Virus record (IMG/VR): IMGVR_UViG_3300042560_001323
Span: 62,001-126,000 of that record
Source: a virus
Direction: 5' to 3' (one strand)
Length of the DNA: 64,000 nucleotides
Numbering within the stretch: position 1 is the first letter of the stretch; each line of letters begins with the position of its first letter. The translations under genes were made by a program, and so were the position numbers. The notes beneath the pieces are model-generated. The model was not told the origin of the DNA, searched no databases, and worked only from the letters and a program-made list of their open reading frames with translations. Below, in pieces: positions 1,042 through 54,594 of the stretch.

Positions 1042-1192
1042 TAGTAACAAAAACCAATAAAAGTTCAAAAACTCTATTGGTTTTCTAGACGCTTCATGGC
1101 AGATGCTAAGTGGTGATAATCACCGCTCAGTCTTAATTCCGCTCCACGTCCGTAATCTGCATACTCTGCAGATGAAAGTTCTTTATCGGTTA
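1042..1192 (-). ncRNA. Structured repeat RNA, copy 1
   Basis: One of four related elements (others near 30.9, 31.5 and 50.6 kb). Read on the minus strand it has a hairpin ATCTGCA/TGCAGAT where the other copies have ATCGGTG/CACCGAT, a conserved block around GTGGAGCGGAATTAAGAC, an inner stem CTGAG/CTTAG capped by GGTG/CACC, the conserved GCATCTGC and GAAGCGTCT, and a final AT-rich hairpin followed by TTTTTGTT. The 5' part differs from the other copies and no clear late promoter box is seen. TATATAAT follows the hairpin and could be a -10 for the adenylyltransferase gene downstream. Confidence 0.75.
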
Positions 1193-26544: not shown

Positions 26545-28281
26545 TTAAGGGCTCAACCTTGCCTTACGGAATCTCTTCTCTTCATAATAAGCCCAAACAT
26601 TTGGAGCCCAGCGTTGTAGTTCTGGAACAATCGCATCACACAAAGCCTGAATCTCAAGTTGTGCATCAAGTTTGGCCCTTAAGTCTAGAAAATGTAGAAC
26701 CGAACGAAGATTAAATGAAACTACAAAATTTTGGCGAATAGCCTGAGCCAAAGAATCTCTAATATGTTCTTCAGACATTCCCCGTTCATACCTTGAGGCA
26801 TAACGCTTACACCCCTCAATGAAGTGCTCAAAATCTTCCTGGCGGTCTTCTTCTGTCCATTCGTACTTTTTACCTTTACGATTGGTATAGAAGCCAACAG
26901 GGCGAACGTAAAAAACATCTTCTACATCTAATTCACCGCTGGCAACTTTTAAAACCCGCTTCCCGGTGTAACGCTGCGACTGAACATCCCAAGTAGTTCC
27001 AATGCGATGGGTTCTACCCTGAACCATAACATTGTGGACGAATCCGGCACAAGAGAATGTAATCTGTGGATGCTCTAAACAGTTACCACATACTGCAACT
27101 TTATCATTACGACGAATAATAAGCGCACCAGTAGAAACCGTGGCACAATGAATTTCGCCTTCATAATCTACCCAGTTCTCGCTATAAGTTCTAGACCGGG
27201 TTGATTGTGAAATTTCAACTCTAGGATAGATTCTATCGGTGAGGCGTAAACAATAAAGGTCATTATGATTTTCGTTGTCTTTAATATCTTTACAGCAGGT
27301 AAACTTTAAATCGTTTATTGCGGCAATCGCTTGAAGTTGAGAGGCTAAACCATATGAGGTAGTTGAATATGCCCAAGTATTTCTACGATTCGTTCCATCC
27401 GAATTTCGCAAACCATCAAAAAGATTATAAACACAATCTTTTTCAAGTCGCAGATAACCATCGGGAAGTTTCTTAAAGTTTGAAGCGTAAAGGCAATTGG
27501 TTTTCATCCAATTTCCAATACCAGGATATGAAACAACATACCTATCATTTTTAGTTGAATAAAATTCTATCTCTAGTTCTTCACAGAGGGTTTGAAGATA
27601 TTCAATTTTCCTTTCTCGTTTTAAATGAAACCCTAGAGTGTTTGAACTAGTATGGGAATCCCCGTCTCCAACCCAAAATCCAATCAAGGCCCAAAAACTA
27701 GGATTATCAATTGGGGTATTTACAACGAGTCTTTCATTCTCCGAAAGATTTCCAGAAGTTGAATATCTAACGGGTTTATTATAAATTTCTTCCGCAGAAA
27801 TTGCATATCTTTCTGTCCAACTTCCATCTTTTTTTCTACTTTGAACAATCATTCTGTGGTCAGGACTAACTAAAAAGTCTAAAGCCTGACCCTCTAAATG
27901 ATACATTTTTCCTTTATAATCCCACCTTTGAACTGCGGTTGGCTTTTCAAAATTAACTAATCCAGTTTTTGTATCATAAGATGCTAATACTGTTTCTTTT
28001 GTTACGTCTGGCCAGAATATCCACCCATTTTCAGTTAAAACTTCCATATCAGATGAATAACAACCATAATGGCCACGGTCATTAGCAAGAAGTTGTTCAA
28101 CGATCCATTCACCACATTTCTGTGGAGTAGGAGTTTCAACTTGATGAATAGGAACTTCCGAGTAATCATTTTTACCCGCTTGCCATACAACCTGTTCTGG
28201 AATTGGATAGCATTGTAACATTACAACTTCTAATCTTGGATCTAGGAGTAGAAGGTCTTCCGCTTTAACTGGCCTGTTCAT
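26545..28281 (-). CDS. thyX: Flavin-dependent thymidylate synthase ThyX interrupted by an intein
   Basis: 578 residues. Residues 1-73 and 401-578 form a 251-residue ThyX, the usual size. The signature appears as RTHRIGTTWDVQSQRY (RHRxxS-like) and CLEHPQITF. Residues 74-400 are a 327-residue intein between GHYG and CLEHPQ. ThyX makes dTMP using FAD and methylene-tetrahydrofolate. The intein removes itself by protein splicing, leaving GHYG-CLEH. Both the intein's first residue and the residue after it are cysteine. Confidence 0.92.
   Translation of the reverse strand: MNRPVKAEDLLLLDPRLEVVMLQCYPIPEQVVWQAGKNDYSEVPIHQVETPTPQKCGEWIVEQLLANDRGHYGCYSSDMEVLTENGWIFWPDVTKETVLASYDTKTGLVNFEKPTAVQRWDYKGKMYHLEGQALDFLVSPDHRMIVQSRKKDGSWTERYAISAEEIYNKPVRYSTSGNLSENERLVVNTPIDNPSFWALIGFWVGDGDSHTSSNTLGFHLKRERKIEYLQTLCEELEIEFYSTKNDRYVVSYPGIGNWMKTNCLYASNFKKLPDGYLRLEKDCVYNLFDGLRNSDGTNRRNTWAYSTTSYGLASQLQAIAAINDLKFTCCKDIKDNENHNDLYCLRLTDRIYPRVEISQSTRSRTYSENWVDYEGEIHCATVSTGALIIRRNDKVAVCGNCLEHPQITFSCAGFVHNVMVQGRTHRIGTTWDVQSQRYTGKRVLKVASGELDVEDVFYVRPVGFYTNRKGKKYEWTEEDRQEDFEHFIEGCKRYASRYERGMSEEHIRDSLAQAIRQNFVVSFNLRSVLHFLDLRAKLDAQLEIQALCDAIVPELQRWAPNVWAYYEEKRFRKARLSP
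27082..28062 (-). mobile_element. Intein with LAGLIDADG endonuclease in ThyX
   Basis: It starts with Cys (CYSSDMEVLTENG), has block B VSPDHRM, LAGLIDADG-like motifs ALIGFWVGDGD and LFDGLRNSDG, block F YEGEIHCATV, and ends VAVCGN before Cys. The two acidic endonuclease motifs make it a homing-competent type. Insertion is inside the ThyX conserved core, the kind of site inteins favour. Confidence 0.9.
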
Positions 28282-30212: not shown

Positions 30213-30772
30213 ACTCTATTCCCCCATTGAATCTCGGGAAATGCTTCTTTAACAACATCAAAGGAAATGTTATACTTTTCTTGTAGCTTTTTATCTTTCA
30301 CAAAACAAATAATTTCAGCCTCACGAGGATGTAGACCTTGTAGCAGATTGATGAACATTGTTTCCCGGCGAATTCCAGAAAGGGAATCATTGCCACCACG
30401 GATAAAGTTAAAGAAATTAGTGTATTCCTTACGAATAGTTGTTCGGTTATTACTACCATAAGAATCTAACATCTCATCGGTTTTTAGTTGCTTATTCATA
30501 CTATCCGAAAAGGTTGTATCATTTCCAACAACGCCAATTTCTCTGGCATCGGCAAACGGTACATCACCCGGAGGAATTGCAGATTCTAAGCTTTGGTCAT
30601 AATTCCAAATGAATACTGCCATCATAGATGGGTCCTTATATTCTTGAAGAACTTCTACTTTTTTGGCATTGGAACGTTGTCTTTCAACCAAGTCAAAAAC
30701 TTCAAATAGAAATGGATTGGCTGGAAGTTTTTTAGGCGTAGTCACCTTCGTCGTCTTCGTCTGTGTCGTCAT
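30209..30772 (-). CDS. DUF6433-like T4-type protein
   Basis: About 187 residues. ATG 30772 begins MTTQTKTTKVTTPKKLPANP; a TTG at 30784 is less likely. Contains FEVFDLVERQRS, FNFIRGGNDSLSG, LLQGLHPREAE. T4-like phages carry this family in the structural or replication region; role unclear. Its first codons overlap the out-of-frame relic of the membrane protein gene at 31038-31259. Confidence 0.7.
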   Translation of the reverse strand: MTTQTKTTKVTTPKKLPANPFLFEVFDLVERQRSNAKKVEVLQEYKDPSMMAVFIWNYDQSLESAIPPGDVPFADAREIGVVGNDTTFSDSMNKQLKTDEMLDSYGSNNRTTIRKEYTNFFNFIRGGNDSLSGIRRETMFINLLQGLHPREAEIICFVKDKKLQEKYNISFDVVKEAFPEIQWGNRV

Positions 30773-30831
30773 AATTTTGATCAAATGTTACTGCGTAAAG
30801 TATGTCTGGTTTGATAGGCCCGTCGCTATTA
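30732..30831 (-). pseudogene. Relic of the 3' end of the gene at 31038-31259
   Basis: The minus-strand frame reads SDGPIKPDILYAVTFDQNYD followed by an acidic end and stop, closely matching the C-terminus of the membrane protein at 31038-31259. It is fused directly to the 3' end of RNA copy 2 and lacks any start. It overlaps the first codons of the 30209-30772 gene in another frame. Confidence 0.75.
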
Positions 30832-30832
30832 T

Positions 30833-31000
30833 AGTAACAAAAACCAATAAGAGCCAAAAACTCTATTGATTTTATAGACGCTTCATAGCAGATGCTAAAT
30901 GGTAAATAACCTTTTTAGTCTTAATTCCGCTCCACGTCCGTAATCGGTGTACTCCACCGATACCCGAAAAGTATTAACTAGCCGAGCGTCTTTATTTATC
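30833..31000 (-). ncRNA. Structured repeat RNA, copy 2
   Basis: The minus strand begins with GATAAATA (30993-31000), a late-promoter-like box, then about ten bases before GCTCGG. Hairpins include ATCGGTG/CACCGAT, the closing stem around ACGTGGAG and GCGTCT, CTAAA/TTTAG capped by GGT/ACC, and a terminal hairpin (CAATAGAG/CTCTTATTG) followed by TTTTTGTT. Same layout as copies 3 and 4. Confidence 0.85.
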
Positions 31001-31037
31001 TAACTTTTGTTTGTGGATAACTGAAAATACTCTATTC

Positions 31038-31259
31038 TCAGGCGTCCTTATAATCTTCTTCGTCTGTGTCGTCATAATTTTGGTCAAAAGTTACTGCATA
31101 AAGGATATCTGGTTTGATAGACCCGTCGTAGTTATACATCTCGGGGTGAAGTCTAGGAGCCGGGGGATAAAACTTGGATGCTATAAATCCAATAACACCA
31201 CCGAGCATTAAAAAGCAAAGAACTACTAGGACCGTTAGGGCAGTTATGAGGCCATACAT
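31038..31259 (-). CDS. Small membrane protein with acidic tail
   Basis: Seventy-three residues with one membrane span (about residues 5-28, LITALTVLVVLCFLMLGGVI) and an acidic C-terminus (DQNYDDTDEEDYKDA). Ends partly duplicated at 30732-30831. Lies between RNA copies 2 and 3. Function unknown; single-span holin-like accessory is only a guess. Confidence 0.65.
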   Translation of the reverse strand: MYGLITALTVLVVLCFLMLGGVIGFIASKFYPPAPRLHPEMYNYDGSIKPDILYAVTFDQNYDDTDEEDYKDA

Positions 31260-31408
31260 TTTAGTTTTCTCCTGAATGTTTTTTTAGTTATTTTTAACTC
31301 AATCTTCAGGTGAATTTCTTTTGAGAAAAAGGAAACTACCTTAGCAATTCTAAAATTAAATAGTTCCTCCGTTTTTCTTTGCTTTTTATTGCGGAGCATA
31401 AACTCCAT
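31244..31408 (-). CDS. Small basic protein, tandem duplicate B
   Basis: Fifty-four residues, MEFMLRNKKQRK start, then FNFRIAKVVSFFSKEIHLKI. Its ATG 31408 begins six bases after the terminal hairpin of RNA copy 3. It duplicates 31564-31692 with a longer C-terminus that overlaps the next gene. Confidence 0.55.
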   Translation of the reverse strand: MEFMLRNKKQRKTEELFNFRIAKVVSFFSKEIHLKIELKITKKTFRRKLKCMAS

Positions 31409-31412
31409 AGTA

Positions 31413-31567
31413 TGGAAAATCACTAAACTATAGTGATTTTCCAGACGCTTCACCGCAGATGCTAATTGGTATGAATAACCTATTAGTCTTAATTCCGCTC
31501 CACGTCTGTAATCGGTGTACTCCACCGATACCCGAAAAGCATTAACTAACCGAGCACAATTATTTAG
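31413..31567 (-). ncRNA. Structured repeat RNA, copy 3
   Basis: Late-promoter-like CTAAATA (31561-31567) then GTGCTCGGTTAG. Stems: ATCGGTG/CACCGAT, CAGACG/CGTCTG, CTAAT/ATTAG around GGT/ACC. The terminal hairpin GGAAAATCACTA/TAGTGATTTTCC (12 bp) has a sequence unrelated to that of the other copies but the same place and shape. Confidence 0.88.
31561..31567 (-). promoter_or_regulatory. Late-promoter-like CTAAATA of RNA copy 3
   Basis: The box overlaps the stop of orf A (TAA inside CTAAATA) and is followed after about seven bases by the conserved RNA 5' end. RNA copies 2 and 4 have equivalent boxes at the same distance. Confidence 0.6.
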
Positions 31568-31692
31568 GAAGGTCTTTCAGTTATTTTTAACTCAATTTTG
31601 AGATGAATTTCTTTTGAAAAAAAAGAAACTGCCTTAGAAATTCTAAAATTGAATAGTCCAGCCTTTTTTTCCTGTTTTTTAGAACGGAGCAT
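31564..31692 (-). CDS. Small basic protein, tandem duplicate A
   Basis: Forty-two residues from ATG 31692 (MLRSKKQEKKAG, then FNFRISKAVSFFSKEIHLKI). Paralogue of 31244-31408 with most residues shared. Unknown function. Confidence 0.5.
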   Translation of the reverse strand: MLRSKKQEKKAGLFNFRISKAVSFFSKEIHLKIELKITERPS

Positions 31693-31705
31693 ATATTCAA
31701 TACCC

Positions 31706-32059
31706 CTATTTAGTTTTAACTTTGGCTCTCCTTCCTGGTCTTTTGTCATAAACATATTTCTCCGCGTCTTTAATAAATGCTTCCAGGTAGGTCTTAATAC
31801 GCCGAGCAAAAGGCTTTGAGAGGTGTCCATAAGCCTCTCTAAGGTAGCAGTGGCGAGGGTCTTGGCCACCCTCAAGGTATTCGGACAATTCTTGTATGGT
31901 TGTCTTTAGATTGACTACTGTGGGGCTACCCAAAAAATCCTGGGCATCAGTTCTTCTAAATTCTTTTTGCTGAAGATATGTATATAAATTAAGAATGAAC
32001 TTGCTCTCGGCGAAGGCAAAATCTACTGCTTTTTCTACATCAAGATAGACTTCTTCCAT
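31706..32059 (-). CDS. Unknown helical protein
   Basis: 117 residues, MEEVYLDVEKAVDFAFAESK at the start and a basic C-terminus (KRPGRRAKVKTK). Contains CYLREAYGHLSKPFARRIKT. Overlaps glutaredoxin by TAATG. No family recognised. Confidence 0.65.
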   Translation of the reverse strand: MEEVYLDVEKAVDFAFAESKFILNLYTYLQQKEFRRTDAQDFLGSPTVVNLKTTIQELSEYLEGGQDPRHCYLREAYGHLSKPFARRIKTYLEAFIKDAEKYVYDKRPGRRAKVKTK

Positions 32060-37907: not shown

Positions 37908-38765
37908 TCAGGTGGACTCCGATGTTAGTTTAAGTATTCTTAAAATATCTTTATGTGGAGATTTTCTTTTATTGCTTACGATATAATATAATGAATTTGG
38001 TTTATAGTTATTGTTCATTGCCCATTCAGATAAGCAAAAAATTATTTCACATCTACCGTCATTAAATTCAATTTTATAGTGTGATGAATTTGAATTTTTA
38101 TTTCCAGGTTTTGAATAATTACCAGTTAATGGTAATCTTCCAGGTTTCCATCCATTTGGGCATTCTGGGCAAAACTTTTGCTCACATTCATTATTCCACC
38201 ATTTATTTTTCTTTCTTTCATTAGTGAGCCTATCTACAATTTCTCTATCTATTTTATTTCCTTTTGAATAATTATTTCCCAATAAAGACTTACTAATTTT
38301 TCTTTTAGTTTCTTCGGTTAGAGGTTTACCTTTTTTTGCTTCACTCATTTTTCTTCTGGTTTCTTCTGATAGATTTTTACTCGCCTCACTCATTTTTCTT
38401 TTACTTTCTTCAGAATGTGATTTACCATAAAGAGGGTGATTTTTACCTTTACGACACTCACTCATTTTCCGTCTAGTTTCCATAGATAGATTTGCTGGAG
38501 CAACTCCACCATCACTTCTATTTCTCAATAAACCAGTACCTAAATCTTTTCTGCCGAAAACAGCAATCATATATCTTTCGTGATGGAGAGCTTCATCTTC
38601 TGTTAGATTTTGTTTTAGAAAGATTATTCTTAGTTTATCTTTAGGGGGGTTTACTTCATTTTTCCCTTTACGGTAAATTCTTCTTCCTTGTCCTTTCCCA
38701 ATATAATAAGGACTTCCATCTTCACGCAAATATGCGTAAGTATAAAACCTTTTTGGGTCTTTCAT
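37908..38765 (-). CDS. GIY-YIG-type homing endonuclease with NUMOD3 repeats
   Basis: 285 residues from ATG 38765, chosen over upstream codons because the catalytic domain begins here. YTYAYLREDGSPYYIGKGQG, then AVFGRKDLGTGLL, then NUMOD3 repeats (HSEESKRKMSEASKN, LTEETKRKISKSLLG) and a KWWNNECEQKFCPECP module. TATAAATA lies 27 bases upstream. It is closely related to the endonuclease at 25747-26511 in its catalytic domain. Confidence 0.85.
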   Translation of the reverse strand: MKDPKRFYTYAYLREDGSPYYIGKGQGRRIYRKGKNEVNPPKDKLRIIFLKQNLTEDEALHHERYMIAVFGRKDLGTGLLRNRSDGGVAPANLSMETRRKMSECRKGKNHPLYGKSHSEESKRKMSEASKNLSEETRRKMSEAKKGKPLTEETKRKISKSLLGNNYSKGNKIDREIVDRLTNERKKNKWWNNECEQKFCPECPNGWKPGRLPLTGNYSKPGNKNSNSSHYKIEFNDGRCEIIFCLSEWAMNNNYKPNSLYYIVSNKRKSPHKDILRILKLTSEST

Positions 38766-38791
38766 CTGCTCTATAAATTGACTTGCAATGC

Positions 38792-38799
38792 TATTTATA
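38792..38799 (-). promoter_or_regulatory. Late promoter TATAAATA
   Basis: Exact T4 late consensus 27 bases before the endonuclease ATG at 38765. A second exact box lies at 38871-38878. Confidence 0.6.
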
Positions 38800-38890
38800 T
38801 TTTTAAATTTTAAGGGGAAGTATGATAACTCCCCCAACCTGAAAAGATGCAAGTCAATTACAGGCATTAGTATTTATACCGCTAAAAAAT

Positions 38891-50032: not shown

Positions 50033-50476
50033 TTACTGTAGGTAAGACCTCAACTTATAAACATTCTTACCGTGGGATTCCATCAAATCCTGCACAAGAT
50101 TTGCAGTTGCATAACTTCTTTGTTTTTCCGCTTCTTCGGAAATGTCTGTGAGCATTTCAATAAGACGTTCATTATCTGCACGCAGTTGTTCTACCATACC
50201 TCTTGCATCAATCTCTTGATTGGCATTGGCTGGCCCTTCAATAGCAGAAACCTCAACAATCCGCTCAAGTCTTGAGACTGGGCGAATGTTGAGGTAGCGC
50301 ATATGCTCACTGAGCCTATCAATCTCATCAAACATTTCGGTATATTGGTCGCCAAAAAGTTCGTGTAACTGAGGAAAATCCGTTCCAACGACATTATGAT
50401 GGTAGTTCCAGGTTTTCTGGAATAGAACAAACAATGTGGCCTGGGTGTCACTCAATAGTTTAAATAATTTTTCCAT
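50033..50476 (-). CDS. dps: Dps/ferritin-like protein
   Basis: 147 residues from ATG 50476. WNYHHNVVGTDFPQLHELFG and FDEIDRLSEHMRYL match the Dps ferroxidase and helix-2 pattern (His, then LHEL, then D...E). Binds DNA and stores iron to protect against peroxide. The start lies 17 bases after RNA copy 4. Confidence 0.88.
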   Translation of the reverse strand: MEKLFKLLSDTQATLFVLFQKTWNYHHNVVGTDFPQLHELFGDQYTEMFDEIDRLSEHMRYLNIRPVSRLERIVEVSAIEGPANANQEIDARGMVEQLRADNERLIEMLTDISEEAEKQRSYATANLVQDLMESHGKNVYKLRSYLQ

Positions 50477-50492
50477 TATAGTCTTTTTGAAT

Positions 50493-50660
50493 AGTAACAA
50501 AAACCAATAAGAGTCAAAAACTCTATTGATTTTCTAGACGCTTCATAGCAGATGCTAAATGGTTTAAATAACCTTTTAGTCTTAATTCCACTCCACGTCT
50601 GTAATCGGTGTACTCCACCAATACCCGAAAAGCATTAACTAACCGGGCACAATTATTTAG
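50493..50660 (-). ncRNA. Structured repeat RNA, copy 4
   Basis: Late-promoter-like CTAAATA (50654-50660) then GTGCCCGG. Hairpin ATTGGTG/CACCGAT uses a G-U pair, CTAAA/TTTAG closes the inner domain, and the terminal hairpin (CAATAGAGT/ACTCTTATTG) is followed by TTTTTGTT. It occupies the 5' leader of dps. Confidence 0.88.
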
Positions 50661-54311: not shown

Positions 54312-54594
54312 CACCCCGTGAGGGCTACGATCCCCCGATCTACTGCTTAGCGTACCACTATGGTTTTCACCACCACCACATTTAGTGTTTGTGGTCTGGA
54401 CCATCCCTTCACCATATTTCTTAAGAACTTAGGTGCTTCCCGTCTGGTCTCTACACGTTCAAGATTTCTCTTGCTTCGCTCGGGATTGCCATTTTAAAGG
54501 TTTCCCCGAATTTGAGAAGTTACATTCATAGAGTTTCCCCTATGGCGCTCCATCAGTTTAAGGCAGTTGCTTTATCCGGCTAAGCTAACGGGGC
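54312..54594 (-). tRNA. tRNA-Arg (UCU) interrupted by a group I intron
   Basis: 5' exon 54560-54594 and 3' exon 54312-54350 join to a tRNA with acceptor GCCCCGT/ACGGGGT, D arm GCTT/AAGC, and anticodon stem ACTGC/GCAGT with loop CTTCTAA (anticodon TCT). The intron follows U34. The T loop (ATCGTAG) is atypical, with U54 and A58 swapped. A CTAAATA box at 54633-54639 lies 39 bases upstream. Confidence 0.85.
54351..54559 (-). other. Group I intron (209 nt, no ORF) in tRNA-Arg
   Basis: The core elements appear in order: AAATTCGGGGAAACC (P) and GGCAATCCCGAGC (Q) forming P4/P5, then GTGTAGAGACCAGACGGG (R) and GAAGGGATGGTCCAGACC (S) forming P7, with P8 (CACC/GGTG) between them and P9 (CCACA/TGTGG) after. 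The last base is G. The core resembles the tRNA introns of cyanobacteria. Confidence 0.88.

Follow-up and report, generated by a model that had tools for sequence, protein, structure and literature searches.

A repeated structured RNA of a T4-like phage as the very probable 3' end of TnpB elements, with a leader shared with homing endonucleases

A structured RNA recurs four times on the minus strand of the stretch of phage DNA analysed here (the window: 64,000 bases, 62001-126000 of the 243,166-base IMG/VR record IMGVR_UViG_3300042560_001323), and three of the copies follow a box of late-promoter type. What is this RNA, and what does it do behind late promoters? A preliminary description, made from the letters of the window, had presented it as a four-copy family with compensatory base changes and no Rfam match. 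Positions prefixed C1 are whole-record coordinates; unprefixed positions are those of the window. The phage, a cyanophage, is T4-like, as judged by its homologues of gp32, baseplate and tube-cap proteins. For its GIY-YIG-like gene, the nearest counterparts are in the Kyanoviridae S-SRM01 and B23, two freshwater Synechococcus phages of 241-244 kb. We consider it probable that the elements ending in this RNA home by RNA guidance, are timed late and have given rise to solo derivatives that are non-autonomous.

The four copies lie in the window at the described positions, with all of the described stems and with the shared sequences GCATCTGC and GAAGCGTCT in each. Four is not the total, however: BLAST located ten places in the whole record, and a covariance model added a divergent one, bringing the number to 11. 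Covariation was assessed on 20 distinct copies, 10 from the phage genome and 10 from other phage contigs. These support four helices, with 98.5% of cells paired; two-sided changes occupy 21 cells versus 5.4 in shuffles (none of 500 shuffles as high), and pairing falls to 34-48% when the helix partner is slid. Part of the structured region is coding sequence in the tnpB-linked copies. The minus-strand RNA with compensatory changes is thus borne out. Pairing of the GAGUA loop with the terminal UACU, which would form a pseudoknot, was also considered; both sides are nearly invariant, and one copy (L030) breaks the pairing. In line with the preliminary description, Rfam (release 15, searched with the window and five loci) gave no match to the RNA copies above the gathering cut-off or at E≤1, and BLASTN of the RNA region against named phages returned zero matches.

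Judging from gene context and homology, the RNA is almost certainly the 3' end of an IS200/IS605-type TnpB element, comprising its omega RNA (right-end element RNA, reRNA) and right end. It forms the 3' end of intact 398-aa tnpB open reading frames (ORFs) at C1:23883, C1:32125, C1:190302 and C1:220796, and it ends a 5'-truncated tnpB at C1:14849; with several copies elsewhere in the genome ending tnpB genes, the orphan family implied by the preliminary description does not hold. The TnpB proteins score 337-346 bits against the NCBIfam profile guided_TnpB (cut-off 100), contain the Pfam domains OrfB_IS605 and Cas12f1-like_TNB, and match ISDra2 TnpB (8bf8) at E 3.7e-75; the catalytic D/E/D positions align with those of ISDra2 and are conserved, so that both the family profile and the RuvC residues are present. 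The covarying structure overlaps the tnpB 3' end and the right end, as expected of an omega RNA; the reRNA of Karvelis 2021 (PMC8612924) fits the RNA in position (tnpB 3' end plus right end, flank after) and in size. By the same anatomy, the 3' flank of the RNA would be the guide.

No Y1 TnpA transposase (PF01797) was found in the phage record or in 14 related records, although the controls were matched. We therefore class the elements as TnpB-only and do not claim a full IS200/IS605 transposon; tnpB-only elements are known within this family. A search of genome contigs for a cellular donor found only distant TnpBs and did not identify one. Copy 1 (1042-1192, minus strand, right-end TTACTA at 1047-1042), which lacks a left end and an intact ORF, is an omega RNA core with its right end, at the tail of a degraded tnpB.

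The late-promoter-like boxes that had been described before copies 2, 3 and 4 are indeed there, on the minus strand and directly 5' of each: ATAAATA at 30993-30999, CTAAATA at 31561-31567 and CTAAATA at 50654-50660. The sequence NATAAATA is a known cyanophage late promoter (PMC2984593). Within the window, CTAAATA is found 22 times on the coding strand versus once on the opposite one, which marks the box as a genuine phage signal. The box is present at every intact left end examined in this TnpB clade.

Copy 4 (50492-50653, minus strand) provides the clearest view of the insertion site. It separates a ferritin-like (Dps-type) gene (50033-50476, minus strand, ATG at 50476) from its promoter. In most relatives, a TAAATA box lies 14-20 nt before the ATG of this gene; in the window, the box is 5' of copy 4, whose terminal TTACTA is 15 nt before the ATG. 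Hence, copy 4 directly adjoins the 3' side of the box. Its predicted guide (TTCAAAAAGACTATAATGGA, 50472-50491, minus strand), which is the 20 bases that come next, agrees at 19 of 20 positions with the empty site of a relative (L253), one base behind TAAATA. The box also occurs without the element in a relative whose upstream gene is 97% identical and whose downstream gene differs. This single site, that of copy 4, fits an insertion on the 3' side of a fixed motif with no duplication of the target. Taking these sequences together, the TAAATA late-promoter box probably serves as the transposon-associated motif (TAM), with the guide reading the first bases behind the late promoter. For the guides of the other copies, no convincing empty target was found among the sequences compared.

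Copies 2 (30832-30992), 3 (31408-31560) and 4, together with a further copy in another contig (L011), are solo elements, in which a left hairpin is joined to the omega RNA at one and the same junction, CTTTTCGGGT/AT[CT]GGTGG. The flanks of the four are unrelated to each other. The 5' hairpin that the preliminary description had counted as part of the RNA is, in copies 2-4, a remnant of the leader described below (its small hairpin S1, to which omega RNA and right end are fused in copy 2) and lies outside the omega RNA core. Copy 2 ends in TTACTA; copy 3 has a rearranged right-end hairpin and retains the terminal UACUA. The simplest account of these sequences would be a single deletion of tnpB followed by spread of the product. 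The neighbourhoods of copies 2 and 3 are also duplicated: the 3' flank of copy 2 is homologous to the neighbour gene ending near 31040, with duplicated genes at 31020-31258 and 30600-30830, and copy 3 lies between two copies of a duplicated gene, at 31564-31875 and 31244-31410. It looks as though insertion or repair had caused these duplications.

Could the solo copies instead be inert deletion relics of IS605-type elements, comparable to miniature inverted-repeat or palindrome-associated transposable elements (MITEs or PATEs), which keep their structure merely from youth and whose boxes are mere target sites? Deletion remnants did arise independently at C1:129534 and C1:200098, with a further relic in G006, and the solo copies differ from each other at only 6-12 of 87 positions. 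C1:200098 occupies the same intergenic site as the L011 solo, which points to some turnover at fixed sites. On the other hand, one junction at four unrelated sites means that the solo form has spread; the four solo copies by themselves show two-sided changes at 48/64 (A-U to U-A) and 50/62 (G-C to U-A); and copy 3 keeps its terminal UACUA despite the altered right-end hairpin. We regard the relic explanation as unlikely, though it is the most serious of the alternatives.

A less probable explanation is that the solo RNAs have been exapted as 5' leaders or regulatory RNAs of the genes behind them, such as the ferritin-like gene, in the manner of guide use by TldR. Promoter, solo RNA and gene do follow one another in a single orientation, and phage-encoded TldR regulators exist (PMC13418256). 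However, the aligned TnpB retains its catalytic D/E/D, unlike the nuclease-dead TldR, and the genes after copies 2 and 3 are truncated or duplicated; there is no conserved link to one gene.

The other end of the tnpB elements bears on the timing of their expression. It consists, in order, of [CA]TAAATA (box1), four bases, TGCCTG, a 5' arm, CTTTTCAGG, a middle hairpin, a second TAAATA (box2), a 3' arm, the Shine-Dalgarno sequence AGAGCAG and the ATG. The same leader stands complete at 38765-38877 of the window (minus strand), where box1 (ATAAATA, 38877-38871), a hairpin with the 5' arm, the middle hairpin, box2 (ATAAATA, 38798-38792), the 3' arm, AGAGCAG and the ATG at 38765 precede a GIY-YIG-like/NUMOD3 homing-endonuclease gene (37908-38765, minus strand). 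It also precedes many GIY-YIG and HNH-type genes in IMG/VR; among the loci compared, there are at least 84 leader-pattern matches, upstream of TnpB, GIY-YIG and HNH-type ORFs. In S-SRM01 (L417, 1393-1503) and B23 (L418, 1399-1497), the leader, with a changed hairpin, stands before endonuclease genes that bear the annotation 'translation initiation factor 2'. Owing to the variable hairpin sequence, a loosened pattern yielded only one chance-like match when six related genomes were searched in full.

The two arms vary between leaders and match within each. Given that MAFFT aligned the arms of different groups with a shift of one base, arm swapping was used to assess how the long stem covaries: the helix averages 11.9 bp with a leader's own arms versus 6.5 bp with swapped ones, a result reached in none of 20000 permutations. 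In most leaders, 2-6 bases separate the end of box2 from the 3' arm. Late transcripts are expected to begin there and would thus lack the 5' arm. The read-through RNA is predicted to fold into one long hairpin that includes the Shine-Dalgarno sequence, and the start region is predicted to be more open in the late than in the read-through RNA for 25 of 26 leaders. The small hairpin S1 has compensatory variants of its own (CCTG/CAGG, CCTA/TAGG, CTTG/CAAG, CTCT/AGAG and CCCG/CGGG); it has bases in common with the long stem, which suggests a switch or a pseudoknot. As in I-TevI, the stem pairs with or abuts the Shine-Dalgarno sequence and the late promoter lies inside the stem; late leaders of this kind have precedents in I-TevI, mobE, segB and gene e (PMC2988022, PMC3014915). 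By analogy with T4 I-TevI, the leader on the TnpB, GIY-YIG and HNH genes is likely to act as a late-on translational switch.

Alternatively, the leader could be the left end of a transposon used by an unseen recombinase, with no translational switch and with TnpB and the endonucleases as cargo. It is common to unrelated endonuclease genes and begins at a fixed distance from box1, as a left end might. However, a common right end was looked for behind the leader-bearing endonuclease genes and not found, which argues against the leader being a mere transposon end, and its arms pair over the Shine-Dalgarno sequence around a late promoter, an arrangement that transposition does not need. We think this account as improbable as exaptation. 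Finally, a structured RNA family that is entirely new and has no relation to TnpB, for which the missing Rfam match would speak, is refuted by the many copies that are coding 3' ends of tnpB genes.

The proposal of late-timed homing elements starts from direct observations, namely the anatomy, the homology, the covariation, the promoter position and one empty site; from these we infer a TAM, cleavage, homing, use of guides in trans and timing, as follows. RNA reading through the element would be poorly translated owing to the leader, yet would contain the omega RNA. Late RNA from the internal late promoter would lack the 5' strand of the stem and be translatable, so that TnpB would be made. 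TnpB with its guide would then cut the empty allele of a co-infecting relative beside its late promoter, and repair of the cut would copy the element in. With no TnpA found, homing is the likely mode of spread within phages, a view that we hold with some reserve. The solo copies 2-4 would be transcribed late from the promoter in front of them, and their RNAs loaded in trans into TnpB from intact copies, thereby adding guides. Whether they are indeed non-autonomous, late-transcribed and probably loaded in this way we judge to be evenly balanced. More tentative still is the general model, which we rate somewhat below even: that T4-like cyanophages practise RNA-guided homing with their own late promoter as TAM, in which TnpB and many solo guides enter competitors' sites behind late promoters, and a shared early-off/late-on leader times the TnpB, GIY-YIG and HNH nucleases.

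Several points weigh against this proposal. The evidence for the TAM comes mainly from one clean empty site, that of copy 4. TAAATA also occurs at the right junction in C1:200098 (the eleventh copy) and in L443, upstream of a terminase gene; the rule for the element boundary may be more complex, or the promoter may be regenerated or duplicated at these junctions. Copy 2 has lost one base and has an A/C mismatch, and copy 3 lacks the standard right-end hairpin; the solo copies could thus be decaying relics. Arm complementarity is absent in 2 of the 26 representative leaders (L319 and L345). The proposal does not account for spread to new sites without TnpA. As a separate observation at right ends, TTACTA followed by AATAG recreates a CTAAATA late box for the next gene in L439 (about 2099-2235) and L443 (reverse complement, about 60-200).

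The TnpB element at C1:190302 (L018, C1:188500-192500, minus strand 3580-1200) sits between apparent split-intein halves, ..CPRQVGK/CFDINTIVRV.. and ..NNIVSHN/STAVVAFLLHY, of a T4-type terminase large subunit; from its position, TnpB looks like the occupant of an intein endonuclease's place. Elsewhere in the window, a ThyX gene at 26545-28281 carries a LAGLIDADG-like insertion, probably an intein, with the Thy1 match restricted to residues 401-561, and a group I intron match (Rfam RF00028, 55 bits) lies at 54376-54570 on the minus strand.

The finding joins two mostly separate literatures, those of TnpB/omega RNA transposon biology and of phage homing endonucleases. Three unrelated nuclease families have one covarying leader in common, which suggests that the mobile nucleases of these phages are swapped behind a single regulatory module, and that TnpB acts there as a homing endonuclease. 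If true, the promoter as TAM would explain the constant expression of the elements, and with standalone guide RNAs a single TnpB would have many targets. The presence of the leader in the cultured phages S-SRM01 and B23 makes the model directly testable there.

How does this arrangement compare with known systems? TnpB, omega RNA, derivatives of IS605 and switches in late leaders are all known singly; an incomplete literature search found them nowhere described in combination, nor any account of a leader family shared in this way or of a TAM that is a late promoter. The RNA core is thus of a known kind, and the arrangement of promoter and leader appears new. Like ISDra2 TnpB and its reRNA (PMC8612924), the phage element has a homologous TnpB with aligned catalytic residues, an RNA of about 130-150 nt from the tnpB 3' end and right end followed by a flank-derived guide, and, at the copy 4 site, a position 3' of a short motif with no duplication of the target. 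Unlike ISDra2, the phage has no tnpA that we could find, its motif looks like TAAATA, the phage late promoter, rather than TTGAT, its left side is an endonuclease leader, and solo RNA-only derivatives exist.

Non-autonomous IS200/IS605 derivatives of the MITE or PATE type retain both ends, have lost the gene and occur in multiple copies. The solo elements resemble them in all three respects; they differ in retaining the whole covarying guide-RNA scaffold and in standing behind late promoters. With TldR, the phage-encoded nuclease-dead relatives of TnpB (PMC13418256), the phage shares the use of TnpB-family RNA guidance, whereas its TnpB retains the RuvC residues that are inactivated in TldR and no sign of a regulated target elsewhere was seen. 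The leader resembles those of I-TevI, I-TevII, I-TevIII, segB and Aeh1 mobE (PMC2988022) in having a late promoter inside the stem, which in early or read-through RNA sequesters the ribosome site. It differs in that one leader family serves TnpB, GIY-YIG and HNH genes, with an upstream box1 and the alternative hairpin S1. Fractured genes with split inteins and free-standing endonucleases were reportedly described by Dassa in 2009; the element at C1:190302, between the apparent split-intein halves of the terminase large subunit, is of this form, except that the endonuclease there is TnpB.
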